Source: a virus. From it: a stretch of DNA of 64,000 nucleotides. The position numbers were made by a program, and so were the translations under genes. The notes beneath the pieces were generated by a model that ran no database searches, was not told where the DNA came from, and saw nothing but the letters and a program-made list of their open reading frames with translations. The DNA is taken from positions 43,081 through 107,080 of the IMG/VR virus record IMGVR_UViG_3300047470_000212. One strand, given 5' to 3'. This document shows, piece after piece, positions 7,920 through 60,231 of the stretch (positions are counted from its first letter, which is position 1; each line of letters begins with the position of its first letter).

Positions 7920-9162
7920 CAGTGTTCTCCTCCTCCATGGCGAAAGGATCCTCGTTCAGTTCCTCGAACTTTCCCGTCTCCCAATCCCACTGGCAGTAGG
8001 TCTCCAGAGGCGGGCAGTTACGGGCCAGGACGACCTTGATCTTGTTGATGTTCGAGTCATCCGTGGACTCGACACCGAGAATGACGTCGGAGTCCTGGGC
8101 GAAGGAGGACGAATATCCGATGGAGTCGGAGGTAATGCCCTTCTTCTTGTTCATCTTCCATTCCAGGACCTGCGTGGAAATGACGATCGGGAGTTGCAGG
8201 TTCTTCGCCATGCGCTTGAATCCTCGGGTGAGGTTGGTAAGCGCCTGGCTGGATCCCTGAGCCTCGCCGAGTTCGTCCTGCATCATGTAGATGCCGTCCA
8301 CGAATACGATCGTCGGCCGAATGGCATCGATCTTCGACTGCACACCGGTAAGCGTGGTCGCATTCATGGAGTCCGAGGAAAGGAAGAACGAGGGCATAGC
8401 CTCAAGTTCCCGAAGGGCCCTTTCGAGTTTGTCCCACTCGGTCTTCTTGAGCGTTCCGTTCCGCAGCCGGGCATGGGAAATCCCCGCGCGGATTGCGTCG
8501 AAGCGTTCCTCCTGCTCCTCGTTGCTCATCTCGAAGCCGATGAACAGCGGGCGCTCACCGTGCAGGTGGGCAGCCATGGCGGCCAGCAGAAGCAGCGTCG
8601 ACTTACCAGCCTTCGGAGGGCCGACGAAGGTGACCAACTGCTCCTTCTGGAGGCCCTGGGTGGCCCTGTCGATCGTGTTGAAGCCGGTGGGGATACCCCG
8701 GAGCCCGTCGGGCAGGTCCTTGAGCGTGAGGTACCGCGCAAGGCGTTCCTGGCCCGTCTCCGTCAGGTCGGTGTCGCGGGCGTTGGGTACCGCCGAGGCG
8801 ATGTTGGCCAGCGTGCGGGCCAACGCCTCCATCGCGGCGGTGGCGTTGCCCTCTTCGTGTGCGTCGACCGAGTCGGCCAGGCCCTGCTCCAGCAGGGCCA
8901 AAGTATGAAGTTCTCGCAGCCGGTCGGTCAGCACTTCCATGCTGTCCTCGACCTTGACGAACCGGTACGTGGGGAAGTCGGTCTTGATCGTGGTGAGGCT
9001 CGGGACCTCGCCGTAGTTCCCCTTGTGCCGCAGGATCGCCTTGAAGACGGACTTGTTGTCCGGGTCTCCGAAGAAGTCGGGGGTGATGCCCGCGTCCGCG
9101 ACGACAGCCAGGTCCTTGTCCTGGATGACGCGGGACACGAGCAAGCGCTCGAAGTCCGCCAC
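7897..9162 (-). CDS. dnaB: DnaB-like replicative helicase
   Basis: The protein has 421 residues. A RecA-type core carries VGPPKAGKSTLLLL (Walker A) and TIVFVDGIYMMQ (Walker B). It also has GFEMSNEEQEER, the helicase H1a Glu region, and a VISTQVLEWK sensor-type strand. The N-terminal ~120 residues are helical, like the DnaB N-domain. The GTG start at 9162 overlaps the upstream TAG. The 3' end overlaps the primase start by 23 bases. It carries one CTTCATAC (RELHTLAL). Confidence 0.88.
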   Translation of the reverse strand: MADFERLLVSRVIQDKDLAVVADAGITPDFFGDPDNKSVFKAILRHKGNYGEVPSLTTIKTDFPTYRFVKVEDSMEVLTDRLRELHTLALLEQGLADSVDAHEEGNATAAMEALARTLANIASAVPNARDTDLTETGQERLARYLTLKDLPDGLRGIPTGFNTIDRATQGLQKEQLVTFVGPPKAGKSTLLLLAAMAAHLHGERPLFIGFEMSNEEQEERFDAIRAGISHARLRNGTLKKTEWDKLERALRELEAMPSFFLSSDSMNATTLTGVQSKIDAIRPTIVFVDGIYMMQDELGEAQGSSQALTNLTRGFKRMAKNLQLPIVISTQVLEWKMNKKKGITSDSIGYSSSFAQDSDVILGVESTDDSNINKIKVVLARNCPPLETYCQWDWETGKFEELNEDPFAMEEENTDGYQGSF

Positions 9163-58368: not shown

Positions 58369-58662
58369 ATGTTCTGGTCCTGCGAGATCTGCAACGACTG
58401 GGGGGTCGCCGACAACGAGGTCGACCTCGTGGTGGACCGCCAACGGCACAAGGACACCCACGAGTTCCCGGGCACGACAGAGCCCCAGCAGGAGTCCGTG
58501 GAGGAGGATGAGGACACTGTCCTCGGCGCCAATTACCTGGCGTGGGGTATCACGGCCCTGCTGGGGCTACTGTCTGCTCACTGGCACGCGCTGGTGGGGG
58601 TAGTCCCCCTGGCGGGCCTGCTCGCCTTCGTCCTGACCTTCCGGCCGAACGACAAAGGGTGA
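58369..58662 (+). CDS. Zinc-finger membrane protein
   Basis: A 97-residue protein. WSCEICNDW plus RQRHKDTHEF give a Cys2-His2-like N-terminal site, then an acidic linker and two hydrophobic helices. AAGGAGGGACC precedes the ATG. The 3' end overlaps the tRNA-His gene on the other strand by a few bases. Function unknown. Confidence 0.65.
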   Translation: MFWSCEICNDWGVADNEVDLVVDRQRHKDTHEFPGTTEPQQESVEEDEDTVLGANYLAWGITALLGLLSAHWHALVGVVPLAGLLAFVLTFRPNDKG

Positions 58663-58743
58663 ACGAAGGGGGTCGAACCCTCACGCCCCTCTCGGGACAC
58701 CGGGGTCACAGCCCGGCGCGGCTACCTTTTCGCCACGTTCACC
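58658..58743 (-). tRNA. tRNA-His (GTG) with long variable arm
   Basis: Acceptor GTGAACG/CGTTCAC with an added G(-1) opposite C73, the His identity pair. The anticodon loop is CTGTGAC (GTG) on a CCGGG/CCCGG stem. The T-arm is GAGGG-TTCGACC-CCCTT. The variable region is 17 bases with a GTCCC/GGGGC stem, which is class II-like and not expected for His. No CCA is encoded. Confidence 0.88.
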
Positions 58744-59100: not shown

Positions 59101-59204
59101 TCTGTGCCCTTCTTGCTGAACGTTAACCCGGCTGGTTATCGCGGAGCCGGAAGCGCGGGCGGATGAGTTTATACGGATGGACTAAGTACGCCATTCAGTC
59201 CGCG

Positions 59205-59277
59205 CTCCCCGACCTGGACTCGAACCAGGAACCAACGGATTAACAGTCCGTTGCTCTGCCAATTGAGCTATCGGGGA
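59205..59277 (-). tRNA. tRNA-Asn (GTT)
   Basis: Cloverleaf with acceptor TCCCCGA/TCGGGGA, D-arm GCTC...GAGC with TTGGC, anticodon loop CTGTTAA, and T-loop TTCGAGT. All canonical features are present. Confidence 0.95.
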
Positions 59278-59282
59278 TTGCG

Positions 59283-59363
59283 TACCCAAGGTGGGACTTG
59301 AACCCACACGCCTTTCGGCGCCGCTTTTGAGGCGGCTGACTGTGCCAATTCGTCTACTCGGGC
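59283..59363 (-). tRNA. tRNA-Leu (CAA)
   Basis: Class II tRNA: acceptor GCCCGAG/CTTGGGT, anticodon stem GCCGC/GCGGC with loop CTCAAAA (CAA, reads TTG), variable arm GCCGAAAGGC, T-loop TTCAAGT. It supports reading of TTG codons, which are rare in a GC-rich host. Confidence 0.92.
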
Positions 59364-59422: not shown

Positions 59423-59914
59423 CTACTTCACGGTGTAGCGACCGTAGTAAACGGACTTCGTCCAGGGCTTGTAGTAGTTGACTCCCTTACCGGGCCGCTC
59501 GGTTTCCAGCCAGGTGTGGGAATTGACGTAGATACCGACGTGGTAGACGTAGCCGTGGGAGTCGTGCGCGAAGACGAGGTCCCCGGTCTTGGGGGTCTTG
59601 ACGTGCACGCTCTTGCGGTACTGGTCGTTGGCGACCCGGGGGATGCTCTTCCCGAGGCGCTTGAATGTGTACTGGGTGAATCCAGAGCAGTCGAAACCTC
59701 TGGACGGTGAGGAACCTCCCCACACGTACCGGACGCCTATGTATTTGGCGCCCTGCTTCACGATTTTCGTTCCGGACGACGTCGTGGTGGTGGCGTGGGC
59801 CGGGGCCGAGACGTTCGTGGAGGCGGCCGGGGTATTTGCCTGCGCGCTTGATGTAGCGAGCGGGGAAATAGCCAGGGCGCCAGCGAGCAGAAGTCCAGCG
59901 ATGCTCTTATTCAT
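59423..59914 (-). CDS. Secreted NlpC/P60 endopeptidase (endolysin candidate)
   Basis: A 163-residue protein. Signal peptide MNKSIAGLLLAGALAISPLA with likely cleavage after the following TSSAQA, a Thr/Ala linker, then NlpC/P60: YVWGGSSPSRGFDCSGFTQYT (Cys), YVYHVGIYV (His). It closely resembles the NlpC domain of the tape measure. A Sec-exported lysin or a host-wall modifying enzyme. ATG 59914 follows GGAGTGCTGTC. Confidence 0.88.
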   Translation of the reverse strand: MNKSIAGLLLAGALAISPLATSSAQANTPAASTNVSAPAHATTTTSSGTKIVKQGAKYIGVRYVWGGSSPSRGFDCSGFTQYTFKRLGKSIPRVANDQYRKSVHVKTPKTGDLVFAHDSHGYVYHVGIYVNSHTWLETERPGKGVNYYKPWTKSVYYGRYTVK

Positions 59915-60079
59915 GACAGCACTCCGCACGCCTGCGAGATTAGGTGACGGGCTCGGGATAAGTGCCTTTCCCTACCACAAATGACTCTGCGGATTCGCCC
60001 CAAAAGATTCGGTCTCCCGCCCCTGTTCAGGGTTGAGTTCAGGATTTGTCCAGGAACAGGGCTAAGCGTCTGGACAAAG

Positions 60080-60152
60080 TGGCCCCCCTTGGAATCGCAC
60101 CAAGATCTCCCGCTTTTCAGGCGGGCGCATTAACTGTCTCTGCCAAAGGGCC
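60080..60152 (-). tRNA. tRNA-Phe (GAA), degenerate elbow
   Basis: Acceptor GGCCCTT/GGGGGCC, anticodon stem CCCGC/GCGGG with loop CTGAAAA (GAA), T-stem CTTGG/CCAAG. The T-loop reads TGCGATT, with G in place of T55, and the D-loop lacks the usual GG. The normal G18-Psi55 contact is thus lost. It may be decaying or specialised. Confidence 0.8.
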
Positions 60153-60157
60153 GGGAG

Positions 60158-60231
60158 TCTGGACGGCAGGATTCGAACCTGCGACCCCTCGCATCCAAAG
60201 CGAGCGCGCTACCGGGCTGCGCTACGTCCAG
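60158..60231 (-). tRNA. tRNA-Pro (TGG)
   Basis: Acceptor CTGGACG/CGTCCAG, D-arm GCGCAGCCCGGTAGCGC, anticodon stem CTCGC/GCGAG with loop TTTGGAT (TGG), T-loop TTCGAAT. Canonical. Confidence 0.94.

Follow-up and report, generated by a model that had tools for sequence, protein, structure and literature searches.

A histidine tRNA gene with the long, stem-forming variable arm of a class II tRNA is present in a Streptomyces-type phage. The gene is real, intact, and structurally sound, and class II tRNA-His recurs in many phages, though in bacteria it is very rare. The stretch of DNA that we analyzed (the window) is 64,000 nucleotides long and corresponds to bases 43081 to 107080 of a 107,080-base viral record. 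Its terminase is 59 to 63% identical to those of the Streptomyces phages pSt2308, GiJojo, Alone3, LuckySocke, and BRock, and tail sheath, tail tube, portal, and major head genes are present, which together identify it as a contractile-tailed, Streptomyces-type phage. By ARAGORN the window holds five tRNA genes, each of them on the minus strand; Rfam likewise finds five in the whole record. These are tRNA-Pro (TGG; 60157 to 60231), tRNA-Phe (GAA; 60079 to 60152), the phage's own tRNA-Leu (CAA; 59282 to 59363), a class I tRNA-Asn (GTT; 59204 to 59277; 71.0 bits with RF00005) in the same cluster, and tRNA-His (GTG); CCA is encoded by none of them. Also within the cluster, at 59915 to 60049 on the minus strand, is a c-di-AMP riboswitch (RF00379, 71.9 bits) lying directly upstream of a gene for a secreted NlpC/P60-like cell-wall hydrolase (ORF 59423 to 59929, minus strand). 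The riboswitch is kept in all six relatives scanned (58 to 69 bits), and a literature search for phage c-di-AMP riboswitches gave no paper evidently on such a case.

The tRNA-His gene occupies positions 58658 to 58743 of the minus strand, G-1 (58743) and the discriminator C73 (58658) included. ARAGORN calls tRNA-His (gtg) on this strand at 58657 to 58742, and the RF00005 match (58658 to 58742) scores 48.0 bits against a gathering score of 29, close to the 48.2 bits of this phage's class II tRNA-Leu, and places a 14-nt insertion within the variable region. The end point of 58743 given in the first-pass annotation is right when G-1 is counted; that annotation gave no strand. Read from 58743 to 58658, the gene consists of G-1; the 5' acceptor strand GTGAACG (58736 to 58742); TG; a Leu-like D arm (58718 to 58733) with a 3-bp stem and an A13/C22 mismatch, marked in the cmscan alignment; G26; the anticodon arm CCGGG-CTGTGAC-CCCGG (58700 to 58716), with the anticodon GTG at 58709 to 58707; the variable region (58683 to 58699); the T arm GAGGG-TTCGACC-CCCTT (58666 to 58682), recovered by both RF00005 and the fold; the 3' acceptor strand CGTTCAC (58659 to 58665), which pairs with the 5' strand at all seven positions; and C73. 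A convergent 97-aa ORF (58369 to 58662, plus strand) has its stop codon overlapping the 3' acceptor strand. The variable region, TGTCCCGAGAGGGGCGT, is 17 nt long and forms a 5-bp stem (58698 to 58694 with 58689 to 58685; GTCCC/GGGGC, including one G-U pair) closed by a GAGA loop. Folded without constraint, the RNA adopts a class II cloverleaf (-42.6 kcal/mol; z = -2.22 versus shuffles) in which the variable-stem pairs have probabilities of 0.96 to 0.97. Holding the variable region single stranded changes the energy from -41.8 to -30.4, a cost of 11.4 kcal/mol, which rules out a better fold with a short variable loop. The first-pass annotation had described a tRNA-His with a GTG anticodon, a G-1:C73 pair, and a 17-base variable region able to form a 5-bp stem, and had named a better-scoring short-loop fold as what would overturn it. 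Structure-based scoring, the free fold, and covariation in relatives (see below) all uphold that description, and the short-loop fold fails.

With a GUG anticodon in a normal anticodon arm and an encoded G-1 opposite C73, the gene belongs with tRNA-His. It does not have the class I-type short variable loop (4 to 6 nt); its 17-nt variable region with a 5-bp stem places it in class II (a variable region of at least 10 nt with a stem), and we therefore name it a class II variant rather than a standard tRNA-His. C73 and GTG separate it from tRNA-Leu, marked by a Leu anticodon and by A73, the discriminator of leucine tRNAs, and from tRNA-Ser, with G73 and a Ser anticodon. Nor is it an allo-tRNA, a group with 8/4 or 9/3 acceptor/T branches, as it has a 7-bp acceptor stem (plus G-1:C73) and a 5-bp T stem.

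A search of viral contigs with the pattern TGTGAN{20,34}GGTTCRANNCCNNNNNNNCACC returned 101 stretches, 77 with an ARAGORN-verified class II tRNA-His and 24 without, at least one of the latter (L087) resembling a class II tRNA-His by eye. A G37 version of the pattern returned 67 stretches from viral contigs, 32 verified and 35 not. Some of the pattern-matched stretches share contigs with relatives of the phosphatase encoded next to the window gene. Altogether, viral contigs hold 89 distinct class II tRNA-His sequences (64 representatives at 85% identity). C73 was required by the search patterns, so that its constancy across the set is no evidence; position -1 is G in 71 sequences, T in 17, and A in 1. 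When variable regions of both lengths were scanned for, at least 120 viral stretches matched, and the 80 matches listed comprised 68 with class I only, 4 with class II, and 8 without a called tRNA-His. Class II thus accounts for 4 of 72 viral tRNA-His genes, or about 5% with this pattern, in a small sample of the matches listed, taken in database order. The first-pass statement that no standard tRNA-His is known to have such an arm is too narrow, as genes of this kind are scattered through phages, including one in GenBank: Brevibacillus phage Jenst (KT151955), reached via viral locus L347, has the same tRNA-His sequence as L347 at 8485 to 8575, annotated simply as tRNA-His. A similarity search of named phages with 19 of 36 assembled representative tRNAs as queries gave no match at an E value of 1e-6, and nothing in the phage collection closely matched L153.

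In bacteria and archaea (84,980 species), a narrower pattern (CTGTGA), which by loop counts would fit 37 of the 89 viral sequences, found 33 stretches, three of them verified as class II tRNA-His (L376, L385, and L392). Each of the three adjoins 6 to 12 other tRNA genes, and the L385 sequence is identical to that of viral L112. The tRNA arrays in question lie on bacterial-genome contigs (L392:1668-5398, L376:251-2568, and L385:5738-7539), and the tRNA-His of L392 is surrounded by chromosome-like genes. Pattern matches occurred in 137 of 148 actinobacterial genomes; four long-gap matches were among those listed, none verified as a tRNA. At 29 of the 30 actinobacterial loci kept, ARAGORN called a tRNA-His, all 74 to 77 nt long. 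Class I and class II tRNA-His occur together at 22 loci, the class I copy having C73 at 16 of them. Other class I isoacceptors (Asn, Lys, Ile, Trp, Cys, Met, and others) also have class II versions, which make up 67 of 636 distinct tRNAs on contigs with class II tRNA-His versus 9 of 577 on contigs with class I tRNA-His, in a comparison of 109 and 97 viral loci, respectively, in which, on visual inspection, some of the ARAGORN calls are doubtful.

The best reading of the window gene is that a tRNA with a Leu-type body was converted to histidine identity. The nearest viral tRNAs to its family are leucine tRNAs, and a BLAST search of the 148 actinobacterial genomes with the window tRNA gave five matches, of which four fall on tRNA-Leu genes and the fifth outside any called tRNA. 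Bacterial tRNA-Leu shares its D region, variable arm layout, and T arm and differs from the window gene in the anticodon (GTG in the latter), G-1, and C73 in place of A73. Class I tRNA-His, including that of BRock and pSt2308, has the GTG anticodon in common with the window gene, and that of actinobacteria and pSt2308 also the GTG..CAC acceptor end with C73, but it has a variable loop of 4 to 6 nt, a canonical TAGCTCA D arm, and a TTGTGGT anticodon loop. In an illustrative segment comparison, in which the actinobacterial tRNA-Leu was chosen as the BLAST match and the tRNA-His was one of 29, region 8 to 26 of the window gene matches Leu at 15 of 19 positions and its acceptor matches His at 10 of 15. 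For the relative L026, region 8 to 26 matches tRNA-Leu at 17 of 19 positions and tRNA-His at 13, and the acceptor matches that same tRNA-His at 13 of 15 positions and that tRNA-Leu at 9.

The alternative that survives best is that an ordinary tRNA-His gained a variable arm by insertion, its identity unchanged. The histidine-like acceptor stem and G-1:C73 are as this would predict, and class I tRNA-His is the nearest core for 9 of the 64 viral representatives, so that some lineages may have arisen in this way. For the window gene such an origin is nevertheless unlikely, its closest cellular relatives being leucine tRNAs and its D arm and anticodon loop both departing from those of the class I tRNA-His of BRock, pSt2308, and actinobacteria. 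All 29 called actinobacterial tRNA-His genes have G-1, and 28 have the TTGTGGT loop, from which the window loop, CTGTGAC, differs at positions 32, 37, and 38. BRock and pSt2308, which are more distant named phages, encode some 28 tRNAs apiece, and in both phages these include a class I tRNA-His of canonical body. BRock also has an 84-nt tRNA-Ile(GAT) with a long variable region, annotated simply as tRNA-Ile (L444:13880-13963). As for a specific parent, neither the phage's own tRNA-Leu(CAA), with a tRNA-His/tRNA-Leu identity of 59 to 71% among the window and its relatives, nor the class I tRNA-His of BRock-like relatives, with its different body, is supported. Conversion of a Leu body is not a general account of class II tRNA-His, as only 30 of the 64 representatives have class II Leu as their nearest core. 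The others are nearest to class I His (9), class II Ser (6), or other or mixed cores (19), which makes several origins likely. The same nearest-core assignment, applied as a control to known tRNAs, returned 28 of 28 Leu, 39 of 45 Ser, and 11 of 17 Tyr correctly.

Among close relatives, defined as 20 loci encoding relatives of the neighboring phosphatase (75 to 99% best-segment identity), eight carry the class II tRNA-His (L007 to L010, L018, L023, L025, and L026), in each case between tRNA-Asn and the phosphatase gene. It is missing from the other 12, and the gene is therefore dispensable. A BLAST search of these 12 found no remnant, the only matches being short ones and those on their tRNA-Leu, and a repeat search of complete records covered 14 of the 20 relatives, seven with and seven without the gene. 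On the phosphatase tree (21 rows, 15 of them different), two changes are needed to account for the carriers. The window and its relatives have three tRNA-His sequence types, the window's included, and the middle pair of the variable stem is C-G in the window and T-A in L008 and L026, a compensatory change. Comparison with related phages, as the first-pass annotation had suggested, thus shows both that the arm is kept in the carriers and that most of the relatives do without the gene. The absence from 12 relatives might suggest a decayed or nonexpressed gene kept by chance, but this is very unlikely, given perfect acceptor, anticodon, and T stems and the compensatory change in the variable stem.

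The arm is also conserved in the wider set. In an alignment (A1) of 18 Leu-like class II tRNA-His sequences, hand-picked from the 89 distinct ones, pairing reaches 98.0% of cells, compared with 75.7% after shuffling. For the helix of the variable arm (helix 4), 91.3% of cells are paired, and all five stem pairs show two-sided changes. When variable-arm halves were set against re-dealt partners, their own partner was better at lengths of 15, 16, and 17 nt (equaled in 0 of 300 trials each) and 13 nt (3 of 300). Lengths of 14, 18, 19, and 20 nt, represented by three to five sequences each, gave no support (98 to 214 of 300), and length 12, with one sequence, was uninformative. Shuffling the whole variable region gave a mean of 3.96 stem pairs versus 3.31 in shuffled sequences, a modest excess, since chance pairing comes easily to short variable regions. 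The re-dealt control and the column counts are the better tests. The variable arm is real across the set for the common lengths.

We think it probable that the gene makes a histidine tRNA with a Leu-type class II body and a converted identity, charged by HisRS and reading CAC and CAU. The integrity of the gene, its identity elements, folding, covariation, recurrence in phages, and Leu-like core are observed directly. From these we infer the route of conversion, charging, expression, and use in translation. A class II, leucine-type body would have acquired a GUG anticodon and a histidine acceptor end (G-1:C73), and host histidyl-tRNA synthetase, reading mainly G-1:C73 and the anticodon, would for that reason tolerate the extra arm. 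Host enzymes would process the 5' end and add CCA, and the tRNA would decode CAC and CAU in phage translation. G-1:C73 is described as the major HisRS determinant, along with the anticodon (PMC9976931), and an engineered long-armed tRNA given G-1:C73 is reported to insert His in E. coli once its arm had been adjusted (PMC7590224), so that His charging and reading of CAC and CAU are to be expected. In the same account the first construct with G-1:C73 was uncharged until the stem and loop of the variable arm were changed, and tolerance of a long arm is therefore not automatic (PMC7590224). A counterpoint to this reading is the base at -1, which is not G in 18 of the 89 distinct sequences (17 T, 1 A). 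That the tRNA has instead retained a leucine or serine identity, so that His codons would be misread as Leu or Ser in a recoding device, is highly improbable, for although the core is Leu-type and the long arm is of a kind described as bound by SerRS (PMC7609411), the acceptor is of histidine type and carries C73 with G-1 instead of A73 (Leu) or G73 (Ser).

The first-pass annotation had also noted that CAT is the fixed second codon of an octamer (here CTTCATAC) and called a link to the tRNA possible but speculative. The octamer is real, with 21 minus-strand copies in the window, from 63237 to 2110, and one plus-strand copy, and the best frame is CTT-CAT-AC in all 21 minus-strand copies. The link itself is not demonstrated. 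All nine loci with the tRNA-His carry CTTCATAC, but so do four without it (L016, L017, L019, and L021), and the distribution could be accounted for by a single shared loss on the tree. In eight loci (L011 to L015, L020, L022, and L024), CTTAATAC is found instead and the tRNA-His is absent, L015 and L024 retaining one copy of CTTCATAC each; neither octamer is enriched in the pSt2308 and BRock parts (L443 and L444). The replacement of CTTCATAC by CTTAATAC is seen in one clade of relatives, and some sites have similar flanking bases (for example, L026:10199 and L013:10211), as if a trans-acting recognizer had changed.

In bacteria, a single GUG tRNA reads both His codons. The phage copy would therefore add no decoding capacity, which leaves extra supply of tRNA-His, or a copy that evades host defenses, among the likeliest benefits. 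Codon compensation was rejected on the same ground, although across 22 large ORFs of the minus strand CAT accounts for 67 of the 267 His codons, a T-ending share higher than for Tyr, Asn, and Phe. That the copy is poorly recognized by host tRNA-damaging defenses is a guess, to which we give less than even odds. Phage tRNAs have been proposed to be altered to resist anticodon nucleases (PMC10264068), and rescue by phage tRNAs has been described (PMC11555353); the differences of the window loop at positions 32, 37, and 38 would fit such resistance. A broader and more doubtful proposal is that phages have repeatedly used class II bodies to rebuild tRNAs for His and for other amino acids normally served by class I, because host cutting or modifying enzymes fail to recognize the changed body and loop. 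If this is true, exchanging the body would disguise the tRNA structurally, going further than the alterations of the anticodon loop that have been put forward to date.

Ordinarily, tRNA class follows the amino acid, and in bacteria the selenocysteine tRNA is of class II. The other bacterial class II tRNAs are given as those for Ser, Leu, and Tyr (PMC7609411). Several known systems resemble the window gene in part. The allo-tRNAs and selC-like tRNAs of Mukai and coworkers combine a long arm with unusual anticodons, in one described case a His anticodon (PMC7609411), but have 8/4 or 9/3 acceptor/T branches, unlike the 7/5 branch with G-1:C73 found here. The engineered His tRNA built on an allo-tRNA chassis likewise joins a long variable arm to a transplanted G-1:C73 and works as a His tRNA in E. 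coli; as described, it is a synthetic amber suppressor with a 9/3 branch, whereas the phage gene is natural, 7/5, and has a GTG anticodon (PMC7590224). The tRNase-evading phage tRNAs are, as here, phage copies of a tRNA, and the window loop, CTGTGAC, also departs from the actinobacterial TTGTGGT. As reported, however, those cases involve loop changes or dosage (PMC10264068, PMC11555353) and no exchange of the tRNA body. We found no evident published report of a natural class II tRNA-His in phages in the open-licence PMC literature searched. The function proposed for the window gene is derived from established HisRS rules.

Plain annotation as tRNA-His, as in Jenst, hides such cases. A class II tRNA-His that is recurrent in phages and very rare in bacteria means that phages remodel tRNA identity, and these genes are natural test material for the rules by which HisRS recognizes its substrates. 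The 22 loci with class I and class II copies side by side offer a direct test of whether surviving host attack is what phage tRNAs are for, and class II tRNA-His provides a concrete handle on why phages carry tRNAs.
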